Assembly: GCF_964204645.1 (NCBI RefSeq) | Contig: NC_134026.1 | Location: forward strand, 15,332,650-15,396,649 | Reading direction: 5' to 3' | Source: Tubulanus polymorphus | Lineage: Eukaryota; Nemertea; Palaeonemertea; Tubulaniformes; Tubulanidae | Length of the DNA: 64,000 nucleotides | Part shown: in pieces, positions 1 to 63,090 of the stretch | Layout: every line of letters starts with the position of its first letter | How positions within the stretch are numbered: the stretch's first letter is position 1 | Notes under the pieces: generated by a model | Told to the model about the DNA's origin: nothing | What the model saw: the letters and a program-made list of their open reading frames with translations, nothing else | Database searches by the model: none | Position numbers and translations under genes: made by a program

Positions 1-202
1 ACCTCTGAAAAGTAACAAATTGAAATTTTTTTCAGTAACGTTTCATTGACATATGAAAGAAAATGTTCATTTTATCAGTAATCAACAGTAAGACCCCCAG
101 TAACACCTTTCATATTTCTGTTCAAATCAAACAAATCAAATCAGTATTTCTTGTTATAAAATAGTATCAAATACTGAAAATCAGTAACAGTTGGCAGCTC
201 TG
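1..202. mobile_element. Right-end fragment of a CAGAG-ended (hAT6-like) element
   Basis: The stretch ends at 202 with TTGGCAGCTCTG, the inverse form of the CAGAGNTGCCA terminus carried by three complete elements in this window. Short CAGTAAC/CAGTATT words recur just inside that end, as subterminal motifs would. The rest of the element lies left of the window, so neither its other end nor its target duplication can be seen. It cannot be an end of the neighbouring hAT gene at 372-3966, because that element would need a CAGAG end here, not CTCTG. Confidence 0.35.
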
Positions 203-223
203 TATAGGTGTAGGTACTATATA

Positions 224-311
224 CAGTGAAACCTCGTTACAGCAAACTATCTACATTTGTTATATCGAATGAATCGTTGTATCCGAGTTTGTTGTAACGA
301 GGTTCCACGGT
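224..311. mobile_element. Short pogo/Tigger-like palindromic MITE
   Basis: CAGTGAAACCTCGTTACA at the left faces TTGTAACGAGGTTCCACGG at the right, an imperfect inverted repeat around a loop of roughly 35 bases. The end sequence is like that of pogo/Tigger-type non-autonomous elements. A TA target duplication is not clearly preserved on the right. It has no coding capacity. Confidence 0.5.
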
Positions 312-371
312 GTTTGAATCATCACTACACTCAAAATCCTTCAAATTCTGCTTCTGATTCACTAGTCTCGG

Positions 372-3300
372 CTAATATTCTTTGGATGGCATAGTGTAAT
401 CAGAACCAGAATCTGAAAGATCAGATTCATTGGTGCCAGAGGAATCAGAATCAGAATTGTCCTCTGCACTTTCAGACTCTGTGGCAGGGGCAGTGCTTGT
501 TGATGCTGTTTCTGTGTTTGTTGGATTTGTCTTCCTCTTTCTTTTATACTCGGTTGAAGTAATTGTACTGAAATTTACATTAATATCATTGTCCACTCTC
601 AGAATTCTTCGCTTTTTAGACATGTATTTTTCAAGGGCAATTTCTATTATATCATCCTTCTCTTCCACAGTCCAGCAAGCATCATTACACTTAATAACCA
701 TAAGGTTTTCCATAGTATCTGCCTTTATACTAAGGCGCAGGTCTGACAACAACGCAGTAAGCTGGCTGAAACATTTTTCAATGAAACTATTACTCGGTGA
801 AAATGTCAGCACGATATTTGCAACCATACAGATATTTGGAAAATTATTCCATTTAAACTCCAAAATTTTGGCCCATAATCTTATAGCATTTAATTTGGAG
901 AAAAAGAAATTCCTTGTTTTCTTCAATTTGGGCCATTCTTTCTCGATTTTGCTTGGGTCAAATCCAGCCCTCTCGAGTGTCACAGAAAATATCCTGGCTA
1001 TGTTTTTGATTGTTTCAATTTCTTGTTGAGTGTCATCCCAGTTGGCTGGATCCAACCAGAGCATATCTTGAAAGAGCTGGCTATCAAATGACTGAAATCT
1101 TGCTTTCAATGCTGTCTCTACTACTGGCAAAACCTTTGTTTGAGGGTACATATCTGAGATTCTATATTATCTAGAGATGACTGGAAGCCAGTTACCTGGA
1201 CATACGAGTAGTCTTGGTTTTGGACAGCTCTGTGAGCATGTCCAGGTTTCAGAACCTTCCAAGTAACTGATAAGTTCTCATCATCATCAGTATTCAGAGT
1301 TGCCACTTCTCCGGATTTCTCCGGAATTCCAGATTTTAAAAAAATCCAATTTCATTTCTGCATTTTAGGGAGAAGTCAAATAACCACAAAAGAAAACATC
1401 GCGAAAAAAATAAAATCAATTCGGTGTTCGACCCTAAACATCAAAACATGACGGCTCCGTAGAGGGGTCGAAAAAGCCGTATTGTGCTGCCACGTAGTAG
1501 CAACAACCCCGCAGTACACGATTAAACCATAGAACATAGTTCTATGATTAAACCAAGATGACGCAACGATCGAAATCGACTGACGCTTCGTTTGTTTTTT
1601 GGCTCCGGTTTATATATGAAGTGTATTTGACGGAACCAATCGCTATTTGAAAAAAAGATCTATAGGCGGTAATGAAAGTGAGGCCTATAACGCGTATTGC
1701 GCCAGAACGCATCTCCTGGCGTTGTTATTTCAAAAAATTTTTTGGGGGAGGGCCCCCAGACCCCCAACTTATTTTCCGGATTTTTAGCTTCGCATAAGTG
1801 GCAACTCTGAGTATTAGATTCTATATTACAAGCATCTAAGAAATACATGCAATCTTTATCATTCAGCTCATCATTTCCAGTTACAACAAAGTCAAGATAA
1901 AGTGGAACTTTGAACACTGAGATCTCGCTTTTCTCTAGATTCATTGAAAATTCAGAGAGATTATCTAGCAAGGCTTTGAAAAAGCATGCTGAACCTAGTA
2001 ACTTTAAGTTTTTCAACTTTTTCAGAACTCTGCGCGTTTTGGCTTCTAACTTTTTGAACGAATCATCAGGATGCGCTAACCCATTTTCTATCATAAGTAT
2101 CAGTAAACCCCAATTGTGGATCAAAGCAGATAATCCCCGCCTCTTGTGACTGACGAACCTAGTACCATGGACTTTGGGGATAACATACGAACTAGTTTCC
2201 TGTGCTTTAGCAATACTTGCTAATCTACGCTTTAATTTTCCAGATCTCTTGAATAAATAATACAATGTTAGCATCAAATCATCTAATTCTGAAAAAGTTT
2301 TATCTTTTTTCAGAGAATCCCCTAGGGCCAGCTCTGCACGGTGATTAACGCAATGCTAAGTAACCAGCCAGGCTCTACCTTCTTTTTTTTATTTTGTGAG
2401 CAACCCATTGTAAATACCTGTGTTCACACTTGCTCCATCACTACAGGCACATACCGTGAATTCAGTATAATCATTTTTTTCATTCCAAGTTTTTCAAGAA
2501 AAACATCAACACAGTATTTTAGACTGGCAGCATCGGCACCACCAAATTCTTCACAATCTTGCAAAGCTAAACAATAATAAATTGGCATGCCAGACTTGAC
2601 AACTCTTGCAAGCACAAGCTCCTTCTCAGCACCTGTTTTTCTTGCTTGTGAACCATCTGTAAGGACTAAATGACCCAGCTGATACAATGATACCGCAAAG
2701 TTTTTCTCTGATTATGTCGGCTATACATCTAATATATTCATTACAAGACTTGCCATCCTGGGATCCTGATATAAGAGGTACACCATTTACCTTTTGCACT
2801 TGAACAAATGTGCCAAAGTGACACAGTGAGGCACCACCACATGCCATAAGGTAAGCAGTTTTAAGTAATTTTTCATGGGCATCCATGCCTGCAGCCCGTA
2901 AAGCCGTATCAATCTTTGGTTGAGTCGCAGCTGGCTTTGTGCTGGAAACCGTATTGCTAGTAGCAGTACTAGATGCTGAGGAAGGTTCATTAGAAGGCAC
3001 TTGACCTGTAGTAAGTGTCTGGATATCTAGTCCAACCTTGTGTGCAGTTGAGTCCACATGCCTCTCCACATTGTGTTTGGTGACATAATTTGTGCCAACA
3101 ACATACCGGTCAATTTCTTTTAGAGCTTTGCCTTTGATTTGCTGATCTCTTTTGATGGCGTCTACATATTTGGCACACAGTGAGCAGTACACCTGAAAAT
3201 ACAGTGTATAAGACAAAAATAAACTTAATATTTTTGGCCATAATCTCTACTAGGTAAGGCCTAAACTTTTTTTCTGAAAATAAATCGGCATTGTAAGCCA

Positions 3301-5603: not shown

Positions 5604-7719
5604 ATGTCGGACACTAGTCCTAGAGATAAAAAAGCCTGTTCGCGGGTGCATGAAATGTCTGGTTCCTCCTCTCCTACCGGCGCGGTACGACCTCCGGTGG
5701 GGATGCAGGCCGGCGTTCCCTCATGGGAGCCCTCCGTTGTAAGTTCCGGGCGGCAATCCCGCAACAAGAGGGCGAAGAAAGTCGTTGAGTCGTCGGGTCT
5801 CGGCCAACCGCCCCCTGTCGCTCTTGCTACGACAGTGGCCCAAGAGGCCATTAAACCTCCGCCCGAACTGGTTCCTAATTTTATTCCGGTTCCTCCATAA
5901 GAAAGCCAGTCCCAACCCGGCTGGAACCATCTACTGGGTCTCGGACGGGTCCAAACGAGTCGTCATCCGAGACGACCGTACATGCTACGGCCCCGGCTAA
6001 CCGATCATATCCGAGTCCGGGGTCCGTTGCTGTACCAATGAAAAGCCTTGACTCGTCTGGTACAGGGATTTCGATCAGACTCAAATCTCCCAGACCAGGG
6101 ACTGGGTCATCTCACTCAGCCGATCCAGGACTGCCCTCTTCCAAAAGGCCGGATTCTCGTTTTTCTCCACAAGCTCGCTCGCCCATGCAACGCTCCCCGG
6201 GAGCGAGGCGCAGGAGACGGTCACCGTCGCCCTCAGGCTCGACCTCATCCAGTAGGAAGACGTATGACCGTTACCGGCGTTTCCTGGTCCAGCTCCTCAT
6301 CGAGGTCTCGATCCTCGAGTAGGAGTCCAGTGCGTTCTCCACGCTATTACCGTAGCCGTTGAAGGAGGTCCCTTTCGCCGGAGCCGGCTGCCTCTACGTC
6401 GGCTGAGGATTTCAAGGCACTTCAGGCATAAATGCATAGTCTGTTGGAGTCGGCAAAAGGTCACCTTGGCTCGACCGGAGCCGGAGCGCCCCAGCCGCTT
6501 TCATCTGACTCAGAAAACTCCACTCTCGAGGAGGGTTCCCTCCCGGTACCCGACCCTGAGGATGTTGATGAATATTCCTTGGAGGCAGGCCACGGCACGC
6601 GTTTAGGCTCTAAGGAGCCATCGCCTCGGGTCCCGCCCGAAGGGTCCATTTCCCATCCTCCGTTGACGTTTGACCGACTTCCCAGTCCTGCGGCCTCGAT
6701 CAACACGACTTTTGACAGTTCGACACCGGCAGATTCGAGAGGTTTTCCGCAAGCATGGCGCCACCGTGCCTAAGCCTCATAAGTCTCATGAGTGTATGGC
6801 CTCGTATGCTGCCTCCGCAGGAGACTCTCATGCTCTCCGCGAGTCCTGCGCAGTGATGGCCGAGTGGACACGGATCGATAGGCACTTGTGGGGTCAGGAT
6901 CGGCTAACTGGTTTTGCCTACCCCCCCCGCCGGAATCGGGTCTCAAGCAGGGAAAGTTCCTTTCTCTTGCTGAGCCACCGATCCCCGGTTTTAGAATGTC
7001 CTATTATCATACGCCCGGGTCAACTGAACGTTTGCATGGTTCGGTCGACGCGGACGTTAGATCGATTTTTTTTCTCACCGTCGGTCGCGCCCGTCCTTAA
7101 CATTCATATGCCTAAGGCAGGGGTGACCTCTTCCTTGTCATTCCTGGAAAATATTACGCTTATCGGGAGTTTCCAAGATATGGCCATGTTGTCTCTGATT
7201 GGGGAGCTCAGAGAGGTTCAGGCCCTCCTGGAAAGGGAAACGGCGGAACCTTCGGAGGTCGCGGATGCCCTAGCGGGTATGGATAGAATCATCCAGTCAC
7301 TGGGTCGGTCGGCTTCGCATGCGATTATTCTTGCCGTCAGAGCTCATGCCAACATGATCCTGGCAGCAAGGACCTCATTGATCAAGGATTTTGGAGCTAA
7401 ACTCCCAGAGGTGACCCAAGATTCTCTTTTCTTGGCTCTGCTGGGTCACTCCAATCGCCTTTTTTCTGGCTGGTGTGCCCCAGTGGCAGCGGAATTCCAA
7501 AAAATTAAAGAATCGCAGGCGAAGTCGCATCGAGCCTTTAATATCCCTAGGAAGCAGCCTGCACAGACTGCCAGCTCAGTGGCGTCTCCAGCGACCCCTC
7601 CTGTGTTTTCCGGTCACTCAGCTTCGGTGAGCAACCGGGGAAGAGGCAGATCGTTTAGGGGTAAGGGTAAGGGTAAGGGTAAGTCCTCTGCCAAGCCCTT
7701 TTGTAAAGCCCAAAATTGA
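5604..7719 (+). pseudogene. DIRS gag-like ORF, frameshifted
   Basis: The first frame starts MSDTSPRDKKA at 5604. The coding signal then jumps between frames at about 5900, 6040, 6360-6430 and 6760. The middle has an RS-rich stretch (SRSRSSSRSP near 6290-6340) and the 3' part encodes a conserved block (FRKHGA, SLIGELREVQALL). It ends in a basic GRGRSFRGKGKGKGK tail made by four GGGTAA-type repeats at 7661-7684, just before RT. The same block order and the FVKHGA/FRKHGA motif occur in the second DIRS fragment at 18281-19716, so the family relation is firm. Gag of DIRS elements is thought to package the RNA. Several frameshifts make it non-functional. Confidence 0.75.
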
Positions 7720-7732
7720 AGTTTCCGGGCCA

Positions 7733-8790
7733 GTGGGCGGTCGTCTTCAAGCGGCGACCGACCACTGGTCCGATAAGTTTGGAGACGGATGGGCCACGAG
7801 GGTAATCTCGAAAGGTTTTCGCCTCCGATTCGAAACGAAGCCTCGCCTGATGAGACAACCTCCGGACATGAGACCCAAGAGAGGTCAGGAGGCACACATC
7901 ACCCCTGCAATCGAAGAGTTGTTACTGAAGGGCGCACTCCAGCCGGTACAAAACGAATCCTCTCCGGGCTGGAACTCGAGACTGTTTACAGTGCCCAAGG
8001 CCTTCGGAGGCCTACGCACGGTAATAGACTTGTCCCTTCTCAACAGACATCTCAGGGTGCCAAAGTTTCGCATGACCACACCGATGCAAGTAGTTCAGGC
8101 GCTCCGCCCCGGTCAATGGGCAGCGTCGATCGCTCTGAAGGACGCATACTTCCAGGTGCCGATACATCCCAAATCGCGTTGCTACCTCCGGGTCAAGTGG
8201 AAGGGTCGTCAGTACCAGTTTTCGGCTCCTCCTTTCGATCTAAGCTCGGCGCCCTGGGTGTTCACTAAGCTGGTCAAACCAGTCCAACGATATCTTCATA
8301 AAGGTGTGAAGAGGTTCGTATATCTGGACGACTGGTTAATTGTGGGCAACTCTCGGGACGAATGTCAGGCATCCATGGACTTGGTTCTGGACCTGGTGCG
8401 GGGAATTGGGCTTCAGGATAAATCTCGATAAGTCCCAATTACACCCGTCGCAAACATTCACCTACCTGGGCATGGAGTTCAACCTTCGCAAGGGCCGGGT
8501 GTTTCCCACTCAGGCCATGGTAGACAAACTGCAAGCTGTATCCGGCCTGTCGAGCACACCTCGGTCAGCGCGGTACTGGTCAAATGAGCTACATGTCCCT
8601 GGTGATTCCGCTGGGTTGCCTTCACAGCCGGCCATTTCAACGTTTTTGGAAGGCCTGCTGGCTGTGTTCGACAGGAGATTGGGAGGCTCTGCTGCCGCTT
8701 CCTCCTCCGGGTCTGGATCCAGAGCTAAGTTGGTGGACGTCCCTTTGCAATCTCAGGAAGGGTACATCTCTGGCACCACTCTGAGCCCCC
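7733..8790 (+). pseudogene. DIRS reverse transcriptase
   Basis: RT palm motifs are clear. They are LFTVPKAFGGLRTVIDLSLL, then SIALKDAYFQVPIHPKS (first catalytic Asp), WKGRQYQFSAPPFDLSSAPW, and the YLDDWLI box at about 8320-8340 carrying the catalytic Asp pair. The open frame from 7733 stops at 8431. The signal continues in the frame from about 8340 (LGFRINLDKSQLHPSQTFTY, LGMEF) through the thumb and connection region. A frameshift near 8420 therefore breaks it. No methyltransferase domain, found between RT/RNase H and recombinase in many DIRS1-group elements, was seen. Confidence 0.85.
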
Positions 8791-22394: not shown

Positions 22395-23520
22395 TTTCAG
22401 CCCACATGGGACTTAAGTCCCAGCGGGCTATTGCGTTCACTTTTCGCCCGTCGTCTGTCCGGCGATGGAATCCAGTTATTTCGGGAAGTTTTAATGACGC
22501 TTCAATGTAATGTCTTGATATTTGGGTTACACATGTATCTACCCTAGACACATCTTCAGCCCAAAAACTGGCCCTGTCAGAATCAAGATGGCCGACTGGC
22601 ATCCATTGTTGTTCGCCAAAATCAGCACTTTTTTCACACTTTTGAACTATTTGAGGGAAATTTTGAAGACGCTTTAATCAATTACCTTGATGTTTCGTAT
22701 GTATTTGATTCCCCAAGGGCCCATCAGCTTAAGAAAAATTGGGTTGATCGGACTCAAGATGGCCGTCCTATGACCTTTTTGGTGCCCAAAATTGTCAATT
22801 TTGGCTCGAACTCCAAGTTCTGTAGCTTCCTACTGGTTTGCCATTGCTCATTGCAATTTGTGATGGGTATTCTTTGAAAAGGGCTCTTATACCTGAGACA
22901 GGTATTTTTGATCAGCCAATTATGACACAATTGGCGGCCATTTTGGTGTCATCAGTACTGATTCATAGGTGGGAGAAAGTTTTCCACATTACATCGAAAC
23001 CTAAGCATATTGTGTTACCACAATCAATTGCAAAGTTGTAGCCCATGACATTATCTATAATTGTAGTGAGTTTTAAGGATATTAGCTATTCTAGATGGTC
23101 ACCAGGGGATGTTGAATAGTAGAATAACTTAGTATTTCCTTATTAGATTGGTACCAAAGCATATTTTGTTACCATGATCAATTGCAAAGTTGTAGTTCAT
23201 GACATGTTCTATGACTGTAGTGAGTTTCAAGGTCATTGGCTTTTGCGTATGGTCACTAGGGGGCGTTGAATAGTAGAATAACTTAACATTTCCTTATTAA
23301 ATTAGTAACGAGGCATATTTTGTTATCACAATCAATTACAAAATCGTAGCTGCTGACATGTTCTATGATTTTGGTGAGTTTCAAGGTCATTGGTTTTTGT
23401 ATATGGTCACCATGGGGCATTGAATATTGAAATTGTTAGATTGTTGAGCATTTGAAACCACTTCCCAATCCCTGGACCCTAGTTTTCATTGGTTCTCGGG
23501 TTGAACGACGTATAATCGAT
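22395..23520 (+). repeat. Dispersed repeat R1, copy with three tandem sub-units
   Basis: It opens with TTTTCAGCCCACATGGGACT and GGGCTATTGCGTTCACTTTT, then a CAAGATGGCCG region like 16490-16900. Three sub-units of about 125-130 bases follow, each with CAATTGCAAAGTTGTAG-like, GACATGTTCTATGA and GGTCACCAGGGG-like words (about 23025-23110, 23160-23280, 23310-23420). It ends TTAGATTGTTGAGCATTTGA. The same end appears at 62998-63025, on the far side of the KDZ transposon. Confidence 0.6.
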
Positions 23521-29983: not shown

Positions 29984-31625
29984 TTACCTTAAAAGCCACA
30001 TATTTTGCCCGATCCCACGAAGAAATTCCCTGATGGTTTTTTGTCCAGTATTATAATCTTCACACAGATTTTTCAAACGGGTGCTGAAGGTCGACATATT
30101 TGCGGCGTACTCGTTCGGTTGGGCGTTGTCCGATATTGTCCTGTGCAATTGCAGCTGAAACCGACGCATTGTCCTGTTGAAAGCTGGCAACAGTTCGCCA
30201 AATTGAGGGATGATGATGCCCAACGATATTAAAAAACTTACAGTTCCACGATTCGCAAATATTGTTTGTACGTGCATCATCATTGATTGTTGCCTGATCC
30301 ACGTTCCACACTGCTGGTTGATACAGAGGCGGCACCCGCCTCAGTCGTACTAATCCATCAGGTTCCTCGAACTCTCTTATAACTGCCTGTAACGTATGTG
30401 GCATTGAAATAGTCCACTAACAGCTCGACAGCTCCATCAGGAATAGTGTCTAGTAAGTAAGCGAGTCCCGCAGGAACAACATCAACCGGGAGAAATGCTA
30501 GACCATCCAGCATTCCAACAAGCAGCTGAAAATTCTCATCTTCTTTGTACAATTGTGTAAGCCCCAACTGTTGTATCTTCCTCTATGTTGACTGCGTCAG
30601 ATGAAAAAACCACCCCTTTATTTCAACTAGCCCATCGAATGCAGTGTTCAAACATTTTGAACTGCCTTTTCAAAGTCTGCCATGACGAACTCAGGATCTG
30701 GAAACAGCTCCCATTTTTCGCACTCTCTTATTATAACCTACAAAATCAAAATAGAAAACAATTTTACAAACTTAATGTTATAAGTACGAAAGCGACCCAG
30801 GAACATTCAGATTATCATATTCTTATATTTACTCCGAGATAATGTATTCTATTTAGCGCCAAAATCTTTAAATCCGAGGTATTAGCTTGTAGTAAATGAA
30901 TTGAAAGAATTTGAAATTTTCTCTGTAAATTGTTTAATTTAGATTAAGATAGATAAACTACCTGTAACATCTGGTATGTGGATTCATCTTTCCTTTCAAG
31001 TAGACAATACGCGGCTGTAATTGCAGTTTCTCCGAGTGGCACCCGGATGACGTAAACCTGTTCAAATAATGGTGGTGCCATCGAAAAGGTTCCGTCCATG
31101 AACCATGCTCTTGCTTCTCCCAATTTCCCAATACCATTTTCTGTTGCAAATATTACTATTCGCCGCCCTGTGGTTCTGTTGTCGTATAGTAAAAATCGTT
31201 CTTCTTGTCCATTGTCAAGGGAGTTAGAAGCCCATTTTCCTTCGATGACTAGTTCCTCGAGACTTTGTGGCTCTTTAGGTAGATTCTTCCTTTTTTCACG
31301 ACGAATTGACCTTTTGCAAACTTCTTCCCTTGCCATTCGAGCCCTGACACCATCATCATCAACTTCTGCCATAACCCTGCTATATATTTGGACCGGATTA
31401 GTTGCGGTCGCATCTGATGCAATTTTCTTCATCGCCAATCTTGTTTTGGTGACTGCTACGGCAGTGGTATCGGCGATATGGTTATGGTCCACTGTTTCCA
31501 TCGGATTTTCCATCTCTAGATCTGTTATGATTGCACCACGACACCCATCAGCTTTGTTTTTCGCACAGTTCCATCTTATTTGCTTTTTTGTAGTATATTT
31601 CTTCACGTACATGTAAACTATGCGA
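29984..31625 (-). pseudogene. FLYWCH-MULE transposase, frameshifted
   Basis: A Mutator-like transposase. The upstream exon (about 31610-30959) has a FLYWCH-type zinc finger (IRWNCAKNKADGCRGAIITD then DHNHIADT). The MULE core follows with the first catalytic Asp in ARAWFMDGTFSMAPPLFEQV. It ends at a CAG|GTAG donor after YQMLQ. The next exon starts near 30740 (TTTTGTAG|GTTATA) and reads VIIRECEKWELFPDPEFVMA; the second Asp is in VMADFEKA. The region ends with NNICESWNCKFFNIVGHHHP (Glu in CESWN) and REFLRGIGQN. Frameshifts or stops occur near 30645, 30385 and 30075, so it is inactive. No terminal inverted repeats were identified. It lies in the SMC6 intron, antisense to SMC6. Confidence 0.8.
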
Positions 31626-31829
31626 GTCAATCATAAACATCATTGAAAATTTTACTTTTTAGAAAAAATATAATCATATTACACAAATTCATATTTAGGA
31701 GGAGATTTGCGTCTAAATACTCAAGTATCTCTACTTGAAGCGATATACCCTGTAGACTTATCCACGTATAAAAAGAAACTTTATGTAAGCTACGCATTGG
31801 TCCAACAATTTTGATCAACCATAAATAAA

Positions 31830-52934: not shown

Positions 52935-53239
52935 TGGACAGGTCATTTATGATTGAAACTGCCGCGTCAAGCCCTATGGGGCTCTTGTTGATTTGCTGCA
53001 GCTAAATGCCGATTTTGGACAGGTTCTATGTATTGCCGCAGCATATTTACTTAATTTCTTCAAAAACGTATTCAAAGAAAAAAAACGTCATTCAGTAGAT
53101 TATTGCCGCAGCTTTCGCCGCTGCAGTCGCTGCACTTCCAACGCCACTGCATTGGGTTATGGTCACCATGGGGTGTTGAATAACTTAGTATTTCCTTTTT
53201 ATATTGGTACCAGTATAGGCATATTTTGTTATCACAATC
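52935..53239 (+). repeat. R1 copy split by the KDZ transposon (left half)
   Basis: CTATGGGGCTCTTGTTGATT at 52974 matches the R1 terminal word. GGTCACCATGGGGTGTTGAA TAACTTAGTATTTCC and GGCATATTTTGTTATCACAATC match 23400-23430 and 23312-23335. The repeat stops at 53239 and resumes at 62895 with CACAATCATTTGCTCAATTG, so the transposon inserted into it. Confidence 0.65.
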
Positions 53240-53240
53240 C

Positions 53241-53455
53241 AGGTATAAAACATGCCCATTTTCAAAAGATTACTCGGAACTTACGCGGCCGAGCAACTGC
53301 GCTGCTCGGTTTACTGCTCGGACATTCTGCTCGGTTTTGATAAATTAGCCCCGCGCAATATGAGCTGCTCGATAATCTCTGCTCGGAACTCTGCTCGGTT
53401 TCAATCGTTTGTAGATCCGCGCAAATACGAGCTGCTCGGCATGCTGCTCGGAATT
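53241..53455 (+). repeat. KDZ transposon left terminal inverted repeat
   Basis: It begins AGGTATAAAACATGCCCATT and continues with about ten GCTCGG (or CCGAGC) units, such as GCTGCTCGGTTTACTGCTCG. It is nearly identical to the reverse complement of 62691-62893. The main difference is one 12-bp unit (AACTCTGCTCGG) extra here. Such arrays at transposon ends are usually transposase-binding sites. Two CGCGCA words (53352 and 53418) recall the GCGCA half-site bound by NRF-1. Confidence 0.85.
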
Positions 53456-54960
53456 ATGCTCGACTAGGTGTTATGTCAAATATTGCGGAGAACCGGGATT
53501 TCCCCAGATACTCAGTAGGCCTACTCCACCGCTATAGCCACATATATACTGCATGGGCAGAAAAACTTGTATACAGGCCGGGGATTTTTGACTGAAATAT
53601 CATATCGCGACCGAGTGACTTATCGTGAAATTTCATGTCTCTCTACTAATGATATAGCGAATCGCACTCTTAGGCGAGAACGACGAAGTCCGAAAAGTTT
53701 ATCTAAGCTATTGATGTCTCCGTTAAACCATAGGCCCCTACATTTAAATTATTCACTTATACAAGAAATTGCTCAGCTCGAATATTCGTTCAACTTGAAC
53801 TATTTTCAAATTCCTTTCAACTCGCATATCTGAACGACCTCCCGGCAGCAAACACAAGTATCGATTAAAGACATGCACGTGTTTACTGCTATATTAGTAG
53901 GTTACCGATAGTAACAGTAGAACGATACACGCTACACAAAATCGCCCACAGAGACATTCAGTTCATTAAATCATGTTTTTGGAAGGTGGCTAAAAATCCC
54001 CTTTAGGCCATTCAAATTTGATACCGTGTTTCTCATTTTTTTAACATTCAATATTTATTTCATGAAGAAAACGATGTTTACAAAAATTACATGCGTCTTA
54101 CAATCACCATGCAGGCATTATAGCAAAACATAAAAATACATTTATATATATAAATAGATAGCGGTCATTGAACACGCCAAGCTCAACACGCGGGAGAAAT
54201 GTTATATATATTATGAAAAAAATACATTGTTTCATCAACACGCGCGTCGGAAAAATCATTGACGAAACTCTAGTAGAAATAAAACGAGCGCTCCCGCGTC
54301 TAGTGTAATAATTTATGTTGGTTTTTTTATAAAAGACAAAATACTCCCGCCCACATCAATAAATGATTGTTCATATGATCTTATTTCTTGTCGTGCTTGG
54401 AGATGGAAGAAAATGTCTTGAAATGCGCTTTGTCGGCAATGAATCAGGTGATTTTGTGTAGATCGGGGTTCCAAGTCCATTGCTCTGGCATGCGGTGATT
54501 TCGATCCCTCGAGATGCCATATTTACTGCATTTTCTACCGAAATAAAAATAAAAAGTTGACTCCCTCATGCTCTTTTTCAATACTCCTCCAAATATTTAA
54601 TTTCAAAGTTTTTTTTAAAAACAGGTTAAGTCAAATAAACACCTGTCTGCCTCCGTCACTTTTCATTACAATAAAACTTTTCTCATAAAGACTGCGAACT
54701 TCTTGGTAGTCAGTTTAACCATTGAATCTAAAACGAACTAAAGCAGTTAAGAATTAAGCCGAAATGGATGTTATCTTAGAATTGGAACAAAACATGTCAG
54801 ATTCAAGGGTCTCATTGACAATTTAGAAAGTGAGACACTATTTAAACAAAATAAGATTTGACGACAGACGGAATAACATCGATCGATTGTTGAGTAACAA
54901 CAGTATAAGCAAATACGCGCCTAGAAATGAACAAGTAATTTAAACTGTTAATTAATCAAT

Positions 54961-55124
54961 TAGTGCAGGCCTGTGGGAAAAAATTGGTGTGGGACCACCC
55001 TATAAAGCCCAGTCCTCTAGTCATAAATTCATTTGCGTTCATCAAGTCAACTACACTTTCATTCACCTGCGTACACTTGCGGATAAATAATAACTTAATT
55101 AGACCAGCTACAATAAATCACAAC
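54961..55124 (+). promoter_or_regulatory. TATA promoter of the NRF-1-like gene
   Basis: CCCTATAAAGCCC with TATAAA at 55001-55006 lies about 120 bases before the ATG at 55125, a spacing that would allow a start near 55030 and a leader of about 95 bases. The upstream in-frame ATG at 54963 precedes this TATA box, so the first 54 codons of the longest open frame are probably not translated. Confidence 0.6.
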
Positions 55125-56453
55125 ATGTATGCGTCGTCAAAAAAATGTTGGGCAGCTATTGAAAAAGCAGTGGAGAGATATAATAAGATATCCGGTGACA
55201 ATGTCGTGGCTGTAACAATGTATCGTAACAGAATTACGAACGTACATGAAATGGCAACGACAGGTACCGATTCATTTCTGAAAGTCGTGGCGGATCAAAA
55301 ACTTAACTTTGAGGCGGCCATGTCTCCTCAGCTTCCGAATGAAGAACCGGGAGCCTCAGTTTGCGATAAATCGTTGCCAGATGTGTGCGAAGTGTACGGG
55401 AAAAAATTATCTGCACTGGCCACCGACAGCGCAAGAGAACTGCTCAGTAATTTAGTTTTTGCGAGCAAAAACATATTAGGACACGGAAAAGATGTTAATC
55501 CTCATTGGGGAAAAGAGGATTTCAGAGCTCCGTGGTGGCCAGCTAATTGGCCTTGGAAAAACCCACGCTGCGATATTCGGCCAGAAAACGACCGAACCAA
55601 CAAATGGGCCGAAGCAGTACGGGCTGCGTGCGCAGATGCATATCGTTTTCATGATATGGAACATTTGACTGGTGAGTAGCAATTCTTGAAGTTTTATTAT
55701 ATATGATAAATATTTTAACTGCTAAATCATATTGAGAATCATTTCTGTTTAATTGGCTTTAAAGTCTTTATCAATCGAGAGAATTATTTATTTTAATAAC
55801 GCATAAGCGTTGATGGAATTGACGATTGAAACAATTCGCCCGCCACGGTAAAATGCATGTAGCAAATTCGACCGTCTAGTACTGCCCCTAGGTATAACTA
55901 AAGCGGGAAAAACGAACTAAGAGGGTGGTACAAAACTTTAAAAACCGTCTCACTAAAAGCCGTCCAATCATTATGAAGGTGGTAATTAATAATTATATTA
56001 ATGGAACTGTGGTCGGGTCCTTAAATACCCTAAAATTCTGAGCTTCCCCCTCAACTTCTGAAAATTGCCTCTGTAAATTTTTTTTCAACTCAATTTGTGA
56101 ATTTAACCCGTACTTATGCATAGGCATATAGCCCATTGACCGGACACCTCCCTACAATTTGCAATTAACTCACCACAATAGTCACATTGGTACCACTTGC
56201 CACATCTAATATAAAGGCCGTTTCTCTATCATTCATTGTTTTGTGTAAGCAGTGAAAAGGTCAAAAGAAATGGGAACTAATTTATATACAAATTTTATAG
56301 TTTTCAAAATTTTTTTCAAGATTTTTACTGGGGGGATGGGTATATTTACCGAGGGGGGATTATTAACTACATTCGTGTAAACAAGTTATCTCAAGAAAAT
56401 TACACGAAACTGGACCCTTCAAATTCTGATTTGACTGATATGTAGGAACCATA

Positions 56454-56489
<36 letters not shown>

Positions 56490-56516
56490 TGTATGTATGT
56501 ATGCATTGTATGTATG

Positions 56517-56579
<63 letters not shown>

Positions 56580-57336
56580 GCTAGTTTTAAGAAATGTTTC
56601 TTATTATTTAGGTGACAACTCAGTTCCAGTTGCAGCGCCCAGGATTCGACCGGTTCCTGCACCACGAGCACCTGCCCGAGCACCAATTGAAGAAACCGTG
56701 ATAGAAGATGCAATCATGAACTGCGTTGAAAACGGTTCTCTCTCCCAAGTGTGCAGTTTTGAAATGACCCTGTTACACGACCAAAGAGGTACAATTCCCT
56801 GATTTGATTGATATACATATATATATATTTATGGTATTAGCAATATTCAACTCTTATGAGTATTCAAAACAGGTGTAAACATTTATTCTTTTTTCCAGCT
56901 AATTTGCAGTCAACTGTAATTGAGAAAGGTGTCCCACAAATTGGTATACAGTACTCGGAACCAGCAGAATACAGTAAGTTAAAATCGCAAATTTCACTAT
57001 CGAATTAAATATATACACAAATAGATACACTGATATTAAATGATCAAATTAATTCATTATTCTCATTAACTATCTCTGAATTATTTTTAAAAATTTTTCA
57101 GGCAATACACAATCGACAATTAACAAGGAGAGTGTACTGCAAACAGTCGAAGAATCAGCATGCAGTAAGTTCATTAGCTGCTTTCCGATTAATCAACTTA
57201 AAGGACTCAACAAAATATTTTTATAAAATTACAATTACTTTTTTCAGAATTTGACGAAACATATACATGTACAACATCAAGATCAAGCAGTCGACAGAAA
57301 TGCCAGACCGAACGGATGAAAACCTATCAACAATAA
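55125..57336 (+). CDS. NRF-1/EWG/P3A2-like DNA-binding protein, transposon-borne, 5 exons
   Basis: Exons 55125-55671, 56612-56788, 56899-56973, 57102-57164 and 57248-57336, all phase-1 joins with GT..AG, give an intact 316-residue protein. Residues about 5-66 ([14 protein letters not shown] to FLKVVADQ, then LNFEAAMS) and 92-181 resemble the dimerisation/DNA-binding domain of nuclear respiratory factor 1. The second part holds [46 protein letters not shown] and [20 protein letters not shown]. The WWP..WPW.N.R.D.R.E pattern, then W..A.R......Y..H..E.L, is the NRF-1 signature. NRF-1 binds GCGC-rich promoter palindromes in the nucleus. The C-terminal 135 residues are low-complexity and look disordered, with a Pro/Ala/Arg stretch. 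It may bind the transposon's own ends or host promoters; that is inference. Confidence 0.82.
56455..56578. repeat. TATG/TA microsatellite in intron 1
   Basis: About twelve TATG units (56461-56520, interrupted once by CAT) run into some 28 TA units (56521-56577), only about 35 bases before exon 2 of the NRF-1-like gene. Its closeness to the acceptor at 56611 could affect splicing. Length is likely to vary between individuals. Confidence 0.9.
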
Positions 57337-57443
57337 ATTTAACAATTTTACAAATAAAAATTAGCTGTCCAATGTTTCAATATCTTTTTCTCAATCTATG
57401 CAACGTCTGCATATTATTGCATTTTTTCCTTTTTATCTCGGTT

Positions 57444-60400
57444 TTATATACATAAAAATAATGAAATGTTTCTCATGAAGTTTTCAATATTCATGTATGC
57501 CAACTGGGCCTTTAATCTGATGAGACCAGCATTTGCCTGTTCATTAATCTGACTGTTGATCTTCTGAATATCTAGATTGGCTCCATATGTGTCTTATTTG
57601 TACCCTATACAGCATCTGAAATTAGAATGGAATTGTAGGCTATCAAAAAATATTGAAGTTTACGTCATCAAAGCGCTTTGTAAACTCTAACACAGACGGA
57701 AAAGTGAAAACATTAGCCCCCTGGACTTCATTGCAAGTTAGCTAAAAAAAAACTTACCCAGTGTGATTTTTCCAATGCATCCTGTCTACACAGAATACAG
57801 TTTCCTTGAAAAACTCTGGCTCTCTGAAAATAAATCAAAAGGAAACCTGTACTTTTGTCTCAAACCTAATTCAGTCCATTAGAATTGAAACTAATTTCAA
57901 ATAATATCTTCTATCTTAGTACTGGTACTAAGAATAGTGACTATAATCAACTTACCTATTCAAACAATACGAGTGAAGCTTGCAAGCATTGTCATAAACA
58001 ATAATTTTTGGCGCTTTCGCGAATCTCGTTTTGAATATACTAAAAGGGTGCCTTGGTGACTCATGACTTGACATGACCTAGTAAATAATCATATTCAGCA
58101 TTGTTACAGGTACTAGATTGCCATAGTTTTTTTTCAAAAGCATAACTTGTCATACTAACCTGGAATCCATAACTGATCCCGTGTGGACAAAATATTGTGA
58201 ACACACCCGGAGTAAGCACACGATGACTCTTGGAATATTTTTGACAAGTGTTTACATCACTAGCTCTGCATGCCGGGCCTTCATTTCCACTATCCATTGT
58301 ATATCGAACATCACTGAAATTACAGATTGACAATTGGGAATACTTATAATTCTAAGAATTTCACATCTACTCATAAGGAAAAATTTTAGTCGTTCGTATG
58401 TAACTAACCTGTGTTGTTTTGGAAGACTTGGGAAGAACTCCAACGATTTAAGTAATTCTGCGGATTGTGCCGGTCTGTAATTGTCCGTGTCATTTCGTGT
58501 AACCTAAAAATTCATTGTTTTGTAATAACAGATCAATAATAAGGTTTTTTTGAAGTTGTTTAATCCAAGAAAGTTTGGTGAAGAACCAAAATGATTTAAA
58601 TTAGTAGCTTAATGTGGAAAATTTACCTGAAAGCAAAACTTGGATCTTTCTATGATATCAATGACTAATCCTAGTACATAGGCAGTCAACTCTGATTCAT
58701 TATGACAATCCAGTATAAACTGAACAAGTATTGGTGCTCTCTTAAGCAGTTCACTCACATTCGCGTGATTGTCACTGTTGAAATATCTAACATCACTACC
58801 GAGAAGATCGTAGAGCAAGTCAACAGTCCCTTCATAATCATTGCACTGCATTACTGCACAGATGGGTCCATTGCAGGCCAAAGCTTTAAACAACACGCGT
58901 TCACAAGATCTCGCTTTTAGACATGAATTTGATTCGACCAACAATTTGAGATTAGCCAGGTGACTGTGTTTAGCTAACATGCTCTCAAGCTGTTTTTTTT
59001 TTCAGTTTTACCAAGTGATTCAGACGCATATTTATGGAGTAATTTTTTACATTTTGAATCTTGTATGAAGACTCTATCCTTATGTTTTGTGCCTTCAACC
59101 TGAACATTCTCTACCCGGGGTGAGTCATCTTTTATGTTGCGCAGCAGATCTTTCCGAAATCCCAGATCTATACCATCACAAATTATTGTACGAGGTTGAT
59201 CCTCACAAACTGGACATGAAAATTCATGAGACCAATCGAAGTCTAATAATCGCACAAACACATTCCACGCACGCTGTAAAGTGTGAAGTGGAATCGCCTG
59301 TTCATTCAATAATTTTGCAGCTGACCGTGACATAGCCCTTAAATGAAATAAAAATTATGTTTTAGCAATTTTAGAAGAAAAGTGTACACTTGTGATTGGA
59401 AAATAGCAAAAAGTATAAATACCTCTGAAATGATGAGAGCGGGTTCCTTGCTTCTACCATTAAATGCATATACTTGAATAACAAACGATAATCCACTAGA
59501 CTTGAATTATTCAAATTCACTAAAAGTTCTTGCTGGCCATCGAAAAATAAACGACAATCACAATCACCAGTGGCGGGGATGTAATACACTACAAAAAAAA
59601 TACAAAAAAATACTGAATACTAAGAAGTCAAATAAGCATTTATTTTAGGGACAAATAATAATATAATGTTTAGACATTGTGATTAATATTATTAAATGAT
59701 TGATTATTTTTACATTACCTTTAATAGGCCTGACAGCACCATCTCTTATAGTATAAGACTGTCCTCCGTTTTCCGTATATATTGTAGCATTCTGCGATTC
59801 CCATCCCATTAAAACAGGATCTCGCTTATCCCACGGGAAATTATGTTTGCAACTAGGAGTTACCAATGACGGAATAAGAGCTTCCGGATACCCTAAGCCC
59901 AGTTTTCGTGTCCTGAGAACTTCCCGCAGACTGCTTGGCAATGGATAGGGTATTTTCAGTGATGACACCGAACTGATCTCTCTCTGCGCAGTAGGTTCAT
60001 CATCACTATTTGCTTTTGACGGTAAATCAAAATTATTTTCTTCGCACCAGTCTTTATACTCCACAATATGAGGGCAATTGTTATTGAAACGACATGTTCG
60101 GCAAATAAAATGTCCTAACCGACTGTTCCATTTGATAATATGTACACCAGAAACGGCAGCGACGAAGGGTTTGTTAGAAAGAATAGCTACTGAAACGGTA
60201 TCAGAAACTTCATTCTCTAAACGATTTTTATACATTTCTGCGACTGCAAAGGAATGTTTGCAGTATCTACTCGTGTAACGCATTTTGAAAGTAGCAATGT
60301 CTTCAGTAACGATTTTACTGAGTGCATTCAATTCTGAATGAACATTCATTCCCTCTTTGCAGTCACATGTCAATAACAGACAAGTTTCCGCTCCACTATA

Positions 60401-61252
60401 AAATTTCTGTCCGTTTTTCACTATAAAATATTCTGCGCCATCCGCAACAACGAAAACTCCACCAGTCACTTCCCAGTGCTGTTCATTCTTAAGTAAGTCC
60501 AAGAGGTAGCTTTGAGTGTCGGTCATATCACACGAAACCACAGCAGAGACAACCCTGGAATGAAAATAATAAGCATACATTACACAGTAACTATTAAACA
60601 GAGAATAGGAAAAGGAGCCGATGAACAGCAGAGTGATTTCAGCCCATTCCATTAGGCTATAGAAATTTAAGGTCAGGTTACGCAGGTTTGACAAATTTTA
60701 ATATATTTATAGCCTAGATATAGAGTGTAGGCCTATAGACTCCCGTAACCGTAGATAGTTTTAAATATTTACACCTGATTTCGAATGAACCGATTGCCAA
60801 ACATGTTTGATACAAATAATTAATAAAATTACTGTTGCCATGACAGGCACATGTTCAAATCTTTAGGCTAGAATAAGACAGATGCCAAATTTGTGTTATC
60901 GAACAAAAAAGAATGAAATATATTCGCTTCACGTCACTAACCAAAAACTATATTATATTAATAAATTAGGTTCGAGAGAGGCCAGAAGACTAGGTAGATT
61001 TTTTTAGTTCATAGCTTCTAAAAACAGTTTAGCTTACCCTACAACACTGGATTTTGGTTTTTCATGTGTTCTTTTTCGATTTCGAATGGTGCCGACGGCG
61101 GCGGCAACGACAACGTTGTTGTCGTTTTTATTGCAGTCGTCATGCTCTCGATGGCTTAACCTGGATATTCTAGAACGTTTGCGAGGCCTTTCCTCGGAAT
61201 CTTCGCAATCCCGTTTTTTTCCTGCTGACATCGTAATTGACCGAGTAGACAT
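57444..61252 (-). CDS. KDZ (Zisupton/HMGXB3-like) transposase, 9 exons
   Basis: Exons (approximate): 61252-61038, 60554-59719, 59588-59423, 59337-58627, 58504-58410, 58313-58160, 58077-57956, 57823-57758, 57615-57444. The N-terminus is basic (RPRKRSRISR, likely nuclear signal). Exon 2 has Cys/His clusters of SWIM/CxC type (LLTCDCKEGMN ... YCKHSFAV; ICRTCRFNNNCPHIVEYKDW). Exon 3 gives ATGDCDCRLFFDGQQELLVN. Exon 4 has FSCPVCEDQPRTIICDGIDL GFRK, with the probable first catalytic Asp. Later exons have LTPGVFTIFCPHGISYGFQ, KIIVYDNACKLHSYCLNR (second Asp), FCVDRMHWKNHTG and INSQINEQANAGLIRLKAQL (candidate Glu). Two faults: a one-base indel in a ten-A run (58993-59002) and an in-frame TAA (57594-57596). 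Confidence 0.8.
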
Positions 61253-61299
61253 GATAGTTTTACTGTTTATATAATCTCTGGTCACTTCACCACCGATCA

Positions 61300-61500
61300 A
61301 ATTGTGAAAGCAAAGCGCACCACAGTCTCGGAGTGTAACAAAACTTTCGGTAATTAGGTCTAACCGAAACCGGTCCTGCTAAGTACCAAAGCGCACCGTT
61401 TAAAATAACGGTTCTCGTACGCCGCGTGATGACTTTTCACACGGTCTAACTAAAAGGCCGGTCCTACGCATTTTTATCGTAATAAAAACAAGTATCCCTG
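61300..61500 (-). promoter_or_regulatory. Putative upstream region of the KDZ transposase with repeated boxes
   Basis: AGGTCTAACCGAAACCGGTC CT at 61357-61378 and CGGTCTAACTAAAAGGCCGG TCCT at 61442-61465 are imperfect direct repeats about 86 bases apart. They lie just upstream of the transposase start, in a locally GC-richer stretch (GTACGCCGCG). They may be binding sites; no TATA box is evident. Confidence 0.3.
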
Positions 61501-62439
61501 TTATTTTCATCGGAGCTAGGCCTAAACTATAGTTTCACAATTATAGTGATTTGCATATCCCCTATTAAATTAATGAATTTAATCGATAACAGAATGAATA
61601 TCGGCCCGGGCGGACCCATGGATGCGGCTCTGCCAAAGCTTGAGACTCGTAGGCCTATTTTTGATAAATAAAGTAAAATAAAAAGTAAAAATAAGTATAA
61701 ACTTTTAATGATTTAATATTAAGACTTGGCGTATTGAATGACACTGTAAAGTATATAAAAATTAGAAAGGTTTAGCTTACCTCATCGAGAATAAAAGTTT
61801 TTTGGCAAGAAATTTGTGAACTTATATCATTAACTAAAATCATCGTATATAACTTGTAACAATTAATTTTTCTATTTGAACGTCAAGACGCATATTTATT
61901 CATATTCTGATGTACAAATTCTAGTCACTTCAAAAACAGCCCATCAGATTAGTTGACATATATAGGCCCATTTGTGAATGGATCCGAGGTGGATGTTCGG
62001 AGCAAATTTGTAATTCGATCGTATGACAAGATCATTCGTTTGAAGCCGTCATCGGCCTTTGGCACACGATTGTCGAGTATACAGATAATTCATGCCACGC
62101 GAAAAATACATACCAATAGGCCTACGAAATAATTCATAGATTTAGTTCAGTAAAAACATTACCAGAAAAATAAAATCGTAAACAATTAAAGACGCCTCTA
62201 AATCAACGGCTGTTGTCACCTGTCTCTTCATGGGTAAAATATGATCAATAGTTCACTCAAACATCCAAAAACCTAATGATATGTAGTTCTACAACTAATG
62301 AACAATATTTTTTTTCATGTATTTTTTTTCTCCGTCAAAGGCGCGCTCAAAAATGTATCAACGTTTGCTCCAGTGGTACATCATCTCTACGCGAATAGCA
62401 ACATCGGCGTTAATTACTTGCTACTATGACGCTAATCCG

Positions 62440-62560
62440 AGCAAAGTTGCGTTACTGGAGCAGTTACTCGGCAAAAAAAATCCTGCTCGGCCGAGTAAGT
62501 CTTTCTGATCGGTGTAATTACTCGGCCAGATAATTATCTATTGTTCGGGTAGCATATAAA
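62440..62560. repeat. Subterminal CTCGG motifs of the KDZ transposon
   Basis: Inside the right inverted repeat, CTCGG units recur: TTACTCGGCAAA (62465), CTGCTCGGCCGAGTAAG (62483-62499) and TTACTCGGCCAG (62519). The left side has no equivalent inner cluster after 53470, so the two ends are functionally asymmetric. Confidence 0.6.
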
Positions 62561-62690
62561 ACCCAAAGACAGATATACGGCCAAATCATTCAGAGTTTAG
62601 AGGTTGGTGCGTTCACTACGTAGAGTTCAGCGATGACAGATGTTCCGAGCAACCCGAGTATCGTGCCTTTGCTCGGTATTTCATACGTTC

Positions 62691-62893
62691 AATTCCGAGC
62701 AGCATGCCGAGCAGTTCGTATTTGCACGGATCTACAAACGATTGAAACCGAGCAGAGATTATCGAGCAGCTCATATTGCGCGGGGCTAATTTATCAAAAC
62801 CGAGCAGAATGTCCGAGCAGTAAACCGAGCAGCGCAGTTGCTCGGCCGCGTAAGTTCCGAGCAATCTTTTGAAAATGGGCATGTTTTATAGCT
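62691..62893 (-). repeat. KDZ transposon right terminal inverted repeat
   Basis: Reverse complement of 53241-53455 minus one 12-bp unit, with only a handful of base changes (for example CCGTGCAAATAC in place of CCGCGCAAATAC). The outermost bases on this side read GAGCTATAAAACATG inward, against CAGGTATAAAACATG on the left. High identity between the arms points to recent activity or gene conversion. Confidence 0.85.
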
Positions 62894-62894
62894 C

Positions 62895-63090
62895 CACAAT
62901 CATTTGCTCAATTGAAGCTTTTGACATGTTCTTTGATTGTGGTTAGTTTCAAGTCATTGGTTTATGTATGTGGTCACCAGGGGTAATTGAATATTGAGAC
63001 TATTAGATTGTTGAGCATTTGATACCTCTTCCCAAGTGGGCATGGTATCCCTGGACACCTAGTTTACCCTTTGTACTCATATCCTCAAAT
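62895..63090 (+). repeat. R1 copy split by the KDZ transposon (right half)
   Basis: It starts with the duplicated CACAATC, then AGCTTTTGACATGTTCTTTG and GTGGTCACCAGGGGTAATTG. It ends ATTAGATTGTTGAGCATTTG, the R1 end also seen at 23432-23452. Confidence 0.65.

Follow-up and report, generated by a model that had tools for sequence, protein, structure and literature searches.

Introduction

NRF1 is a conserved host regulator, known as one per animal genome, that regulates animal mitochondrial genes and binds GCGCATGCGC as a homodimer. Transposons that encode a DNA-binding protein beside their transposase include En/Spm, whose TnpA regulates its own element, binds to repeats in the subterminal DNA and is needed for transposition (PMC2613891), and Harbinger, a two-gene animal transposon whose Myb-like protein binds the terminal inverted repeats (TIRs) and aids nuclear import of the transposase (PMC9179366). 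Here we describe a 64,000-nucleotide stretch of the genome of the palaeonemertean ribbon worm Tubulanus polymorphus (Nemertea; 267.8 Mb in 77 contigs), C2:15332650-15396649, hereafter the window, which contains a complete KDZ-like DNA transposon carrying an NRF1-like gene. The same pairing of genes recurs elsewhere in this genome.

Among KDZ transposons, 7-bp target-site duplications are reported for two Kyakuja families and 8-bp duplications for Zisupton and a Dileera family, and fungal KDZ elements are described that carry chromatin-related cargo of the TET/JBP type (PMC12730594). NRF1 is a promoter activator, and the human protein reads bases through R206, N242 and R244 (PMC10810270). Of nine species tabulated for Nrf1_DNA-binding genes, Branchiostoma floridae has three and none of the remaining eight has more than one (PMC8122590 Table 1).

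The Tubulanus element shares some properties with each of these systems. Like Kyakuja it has a 7-bp duplication; it differs from KDZ elements in its NRF1-like gene, which goes unmentioned in the available part of the KDZ account, and in its long inverted repeats, Kyakuja-1/2_LB being reported there without TIRs (PMC12730594). As in the TET/JBP-carrying fungal elements, its extra gene is tied to DNA or chromatin control, although theirs is an enzyme, found in several unrelated transposon lineages (PMC12730594). Both En/Spm and the Tubulanus element combine many short subterminal repeats with an element-encoded DNA-binding protein (here predicted), although the protein family and transposase superfamily are unrelated and the NRF1-like protein is a putative end binder. 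With Harbinger it has in common two genes whose divergence is largely congruent (PMC9179366); it departs from it in an NRF1 rather than a Myb/SANT fold and in its transposase. From NRF1, EWG and P3A2 the mobile version differs in being multi-copy and transposon-borne, with its DNA-binding region in one exon and a short divergent tail. A search of the open literature, outside which most subscription papers lie, found no paper coupling a KDZ or other transposase with NRF1, no such element among the titles and abstract openings listed, and no paper on the Tubulanus genome and transposable elements. To this extent no description of NRF1 as transposon cargo was found, and a first-pass annotation of this locus likewise knew of none.

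Results

The element, its genes and its insertion site

The limits of the element were set by its TIRs, by the target-site duplication and by identical termini in sister copies, and both gene models are predicted from splice sites and homology. The features, in window coordinates, are as follows.

53233..53239, +, left target-site duplication CACAATC
53240..62894, no strand assigned, complete two-gene KDZ-like DNA transposon, 9655 bp, termini CAGG...GCTC
53240..53455, +, left TIR, holding TGCTCGG repeats, spacing often 12-13 bp
55125..55671, +, NRF1-like exon 1, with the dimerization and DNA-binding regions in one exon
56612..56788, +, NRF1-like exon 2
56899..56973, +, NRF1-like exon 3
57102..57164, +, NRF1-like exon 4
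57248..57336, +, NRF1-like exon 5, ending at the stop codon
57444..61252, -, KDZ-like transposase, 9 exons, interrupted by a single frame slip and a single stop codon
61252-61038, 60554-59719, 59588-59423, 59337-58627, 58503-58409, -, first five transposase exons
58313-58160, 58077-57956, 57823-57758, 57615-57444, -, last four transposase exons
62691..62894, -, right TIR, holding TGCTCGG repeats
62895..62901, +, right target-site duplication CACAATC

The inverted repeats amount to ~215 bp in all, with tips 5'-CAGGTATA...TATAGCTC-3', and comprise an outer block of 146 nt (53241-53386/62748-62893, 99% identity) and an inner block of 67 nt (53389-53455/62691-62757, 97% identity). The flanking CACAATC is a perfect 7-bp duplication (7/7), recognized by comparison of the flanks and, on the left, by an uninterrupted paralogous site. 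This site lies in L040, where a related dispersed repeat is unbroken at the matching place and the window's two flanks align with an overlap of seven bases; L040 is a paralogous empty site for the window element. A 154-bp tandem unit at window 22999-23426, found also in L040 (934-1413) and L067, resembles both element flanks (TGGTCACCA, CACAATC), and the element therefore sits inside a dispersed minisatellite-like repeat.

The accessory gene is, as the first-pass annotation had it, unbroken and of five exons: its introns are GT/AG and it encodes 316 amino acids with no internal stop. The recommended profile search placed it in the NRF1 family, the protein scoring 51.2 bits against Pfam PF10491 (Nrf1_DNA-bind; E 1.7e-13, cut-off 23.5) with residues 23-181 matched to profile positions 52-208 of 213, a span which includes part of the dimerization region. 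A sequence search of the PDB gave two matches, both human NRF1 (8k3d, 8k4l), and the window copy keeps all three base-reading residues (R206, N242 and R244 in human numbering). Protein database searches of a kind that reaches only relatives of similar length sharing exact words gave no match at E<=0.001 with the single sequence, and two proteins, both from Tubulanus polymorphus, with an alignment of eight rows.

Two faults had been noticed in the transposase, and both are present: the reading frame slips within a homopolymer of exon d (58974-59001), and the last exon contains a stop codon at about 57594-57596. Residues 350-840 of the read-through, with X at the faults, found 35 homologous proteins at E<=0.001, the best from Amphiura at 46% identity and further ones from Branchiostoma, Ptychodera, molluscs, Clytia and environmental sources. 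In precomputed annotation 11 of the 35 carry the KDZ domain PF18758 and eight carry CxC4; PF18758 was matched at E<=0.01 by six of seven aligned homologs. The window transposase itself had no direct match to PF18758 at E<=1 and scored 22.6 bits against CxC4 PF18717, below the cut-off of 26.9, and a genome-wide PF18758 search gave matches at other loci and none at the window element. We call the transposase KDZ-related because its homologs carry PF18758, though the direct match is absent. Its homology to KDZ-domain proteins covers the catalytic part, and a 7-bp duplication accompanies nine copies of the element, perfectly in seven. D460, D755 and E814 (read-through numbering) are invariant in all eight aligned sequences and are the probable catalytic DDE residues. 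Together with the TIRs, these results bear out the proposal of a KDZ-type element with an NRF1-like gene between one pair of inverted repeats.

KDZ-domain genes over the Pfam cut-off, of a different KDZ branch and without NRF1-like neighbours, are present at L058 and L059 (C2:16.47-16.50 Mb). The two loci lie in a duplicated tract whose copies agree at 99.9% across 6.3 kb or more and show no visible terminal repeats; they were considered as an NRF1-less control for the end repeats and dropped.

The gene pair recurs across the genome

Match counts from the genome-wide searches are lower bounds. The Nrf1 profile gave 22 matches over its cut-off, which resolve into five exons of host NRF1, an ordinary multi-exon gene at C3:7491174-7492411, and 17 single-exon loci distinct from it. 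With the NRF1-like protein as query there were 28 matches, which fall at the host gene and 20 further loci (21 in all). Transposase probes from a middle exon (24 matches) and the C-terminal part (59 matches) defined 25 loci in a list merged by hand. A transposase lies within 20 kb of 14 of the 20 non-host NRF1-like loci and is convergent with the NRF1-like gene in 14/14; none was detected near the other six. The first transposase probe alone paired 11 of 21 NRF1-like loci (host gene counted), whereas 2000 random shifts of position within 1.5 Mb gave 0.38 pairs on average and never more than 4.

Two of the loci at which no transposase was detected, L024 and L025 (C3:14153559 and C3:14175022), lie ~21 kb apart in opposite orientation, and their NRF1-like exons are 99% identical over 379 nt; both still match the NRF1 profile, with K in place of R244.

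Both ends are preserved in nine copies: the window element, L037, L038 (C4:15810392-15815040) and the following.

A, C2:11.80 Mb
B, C10:6.96 Mb
E20, C2:13666046-13674317
E26, C5:13862619-13871278
E22, C4:11778262-11783817
L008, C9:6095208-6095463, a short palindromic copy

The 7-bp duplication is imperfect only in L008 and A (6/7 each). Seven of the nine copies hold both genes (not L038 or L008), six of these with a perfect duplication. The left tip CAGGTATA is found in eight of nine, B having CAGTATA, and the right tip TATAGCTC likewise in eight, L037 having GATAGCTC. In E22 the NRF1-like exon begins at most ~230 bp from the tip and its frame is lost, and we therefore judge that gene damaged. 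A left end only was found for E19 (L019) and for the copy at C1:16.09 Mb (L036). A genome search for ends gave 16 matches, of which five single ones are 76-81% alike (C2:13561161, C5:13622944, C6:11792136, C6:13788966, C4:14764563). L008 is a ~256-bp palindrome of two element ends; it resembles a miniature inverted-repeat transposable element and could be moved in trans.

Four of the 11 transposase loci lacking a nearby NRF1-like match were examined, and all are deleted or truncated. L038 has lost the equivalent of window 54245-59309, and with it the whole NRF1-like gene, while its duplication is perfect. C7:12731280 and C5:12735656 were set aside as NRF1-less controls, being truncated and without the downstream transposase exons as well. 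At C4:11839644, window-type ends at 11839466 and 11850918 enclose broken, stop-ridden transposase exons and no NRF1-like match. This old copy (C4:11839466-11851019; L045, L067) is not window-like over 53338 to 57816, and its interior includes copies of the flanking host repeat; with foreign DNA in place of its own interior, it is too badly wrecked to serve as a fair control.

The two-gene families with ends and duplication include some only ~25-48% alike in protein. Identities for the NRF1-like protein and the transposase are, respectively, 38 and 38% between the window and A, 30 and 32% between the window and E20, 96 and 96% between A and B, 96 and 95% between E20 and E26, and 88 and 89% between E19 and E22. 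Over 21 pairs the two sets of identities correlate with r 0.93, a value carried largely by three close pairs. The NRF1-like gene and the transposase thus share their inheritance across several diverged families, and they diverge largely in step. The recurrence of the pairing in such families shows well that it is not a one-off capture, and it therefore marks a lasting two-gene transposon lineage. The recurrent pairing of KDZ and NRF1-like genes is thus real, and no earlier description of it was found in the open literature.

Repeated words crowd many element ends

The outer 300 bp of the ends were compared with dinucleotide shuffles for six sets of words, with p values left uncorrected. TGCTC/GAGCA was over-represented (p<=0.02) in eight of 12 ends and in two of three ends added later (the right ends of E26 and C7, and not that of E22), making 10/15, both window ends among them. 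In the window, the density of TGCTC per kb is 35 for the end 600 bp, 1.8 for the element's interior and 1.4 outside it; the corresponding figures for TGCGC are 8.3, 1.2 and 0.9. The end repeats of the window start ~30-50 bp from the tips and span within about 30-250 bp, often 12-13 bp apart. TGCTC is related to the canonical NRF1 half-site TGCGC, and near the right tip of E20 and E26 stands the sequence TTGCGCATGAGCA, in which a pair of half-sites is arranged as in the NRF1 palindrome but for a single altered base. The ends of A and B carry CTCGCGCGAG and TTGCGCGAG in place of TGCTC enrichment; the core GAGC/GCTC is raised at both A ends (p 0.007, 0.027) and not at the B ends (0.156, 0.103).

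Constraint on the NRF1-like gene

It had been suggested that the intact accessory gene reflects either selection or very recent insertion. We attribute it to recent insertion. Selection on the window copy found no support: taken together, its NRF1-like exons differ from those of the sister L037 by ~10 nonsynonymous and 2 synonymous substitutions, exons 1 and 5 of L037 are each interrupted by a stop, and the frame is lost in L039. The comparison of dN/dS across copies, also proposed at the outset, gave 0.47 for the window and L039, 0.35 for A and B, 0.67 for L020 and L026, 0.43 for L020 and L023 and 0.29 (two changes) for L025 and L024, with 0.47-0.49 for transposase exon b; all these values rest on few changes and are too noisy to reveal purifying selection. 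Over the 20 non-host loci compared, the position of R206 is R in 16 of 17 covering loci (L in L023), N242 is kept in 18 of 19, the exception being an R in L022 where the frame is lost, and the R244 position is occupied by R in 12 of 19 and by K in five, with L in L022 and a stop in L031. Judged from these alignments, constraint on the gene appears only between families and not on the window copy.

Discussion

Our findings describe a transposon lineage that keeps its own diverging NRF1-like gene beside its transposase, so that the DNA-reading fold of NRF1 has been reused as a component of a mobile element. The transposase and the NRF1-like protein are encoded convergently between the shared tips, and insertion produces 7-bp duplications. 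On balance, we lean towards the view that the window element is a recently inserted copy of a two-gene KDZ-like cut-and-paste lineage whose NRF1-like protein binds the ends and regulates the element. The protein would dimerize as NRF1 does and may bind the TGCTC/TGCGC words crowded in the ends. Once bound, it would pair the two ends so that the transposase can act on them, and it would also control transcription of both genes, since both read inward from those ends. Precedents for these roles, established or suspected, are TnpA of En/Spm and the Myb-like protein of Harbinger. Of the three functions raised by the first-pass annotation (binding the element's own ends, targeting promoters or regulating the transposase), the end repeats favor the first.

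Several observations weigh against this interpretation. Five of the 15 ends show no TGCTC enrichment (the left and right ends of A and B, and the right end of E22), and TGCGC is enriched in one alone (C7 right, p 0.030). The transposase or a host protein could be the binder of the end repeats instead. A structure prediction, one of the checks proposed, was run with AlphaFold on exon 1 from a three-row alignment and reached a pLDDT of 38.9, too poor for use. NRF1-like matches are lacking near 11 of the 25 transposase loci. Several loci and ends are sister copies, and the counts of both are therefore not independent. Against parallel divergence, E19 and E22 are 29% identical to the window in the transposase and 47-48% in the NRF1-like protein, over short aligned parts.

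An alternative that we consider rather unlikely holds that the NRF1-like gene is a passenger, or selfish-helper cargo, whose targets are host genes or chromatin and which might, for instance, mimic NRF1 at CpG promoters that are open. The scarcity of TGCGC enrichment in the ends speaks for it, as do the promoter-activating role of NRF1 (PMC10810270) and the chromatin-related TET/JBP cargo of fungal KDZ elements; the latter, by contrast, is reported from several unrelated transposon lineages (PMC12730594), whereas the invariably convergent layout of the Tubulanus pair and its co-divergence with the transposase resemble those of a core gene. Also against it, TGCGC occurs by inspection in none of the nine target duplications and 2, 1 and 1 times in the 1-kb flanks (~2 kb each) of the window, A and B. 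The protein might also mainly repress or activate the element's two promoters, with no direct role in recognizing the ends. NRF1 is a transcription factor, and both genes read inward from the TGCTC-rich ends; yet the window repeats lie where end-binding factors act, and the terminal repeats stop 1.4-1.7 kb short of both start codons, which makes this a doubtful explanation overall.

That a transposon inserted by chance around a host NRF1 paralogue, or recombined with one, could still be entertained while a single copy was in view, and the six NRF1-like loci without a detected transposase would suit it. The proposal is refuted by the position shuffles (~0.4 pairs expected vs 11 seen with the first probe), by the 14 convergent pairs, by the co-divergence and by ends and duplications common to diverged families; host NRF1, moreover, is located elsewhere and has a different exon structure. 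We regard it as barely conceivable.

Eleven NRF1-like sequences compared with host NRF1 were 18-28% identical to it, and the DNA-binding region occupies one exon in the mobile version against ~5 in the host gene, which fits the capture of an intron-poor copy or an old loss of introns. The source of the NRF1-like gene was probably an animal NRF1 copy that lacked introns across this region and was captured by a KDZ ancestor. The relationship might also be turned around, NRF1 itself having been domesticated from a protein that bound the ends of an ancient KDZ transposon. Its GCGCATGCGC site would then be left over from the recognition of transposon ends, and the ribbon-worm elements would be surviving relatives of the source; we hold this to be very improbable.

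If the ends are indeed bound, each family would pair an NRF1-like protein with its own diverged binding sites, a natural series in which the evolution of NRF1 specificity is directly testable. The elements also add an animal KDZ lineage with a dedicated, predicted DNA-binding partner, parallel to TnpA and the Harbinger Myb-like protein.

Other mobile-element sequences

Open frames at window 6667-8431 (+) resemble a DIRS-like reverse transcriptase; this stretch has ~50% GC vs 35-42% for most of the window. An open frame at window 30944-31630 (-) resembles the N-terminus of a FLYWCH/MULE-type transposase. In L059, an 830-codon frame at 85-2574 (+) resembles a Penelope-type reverse transcriptase with a GIY-YIG end.

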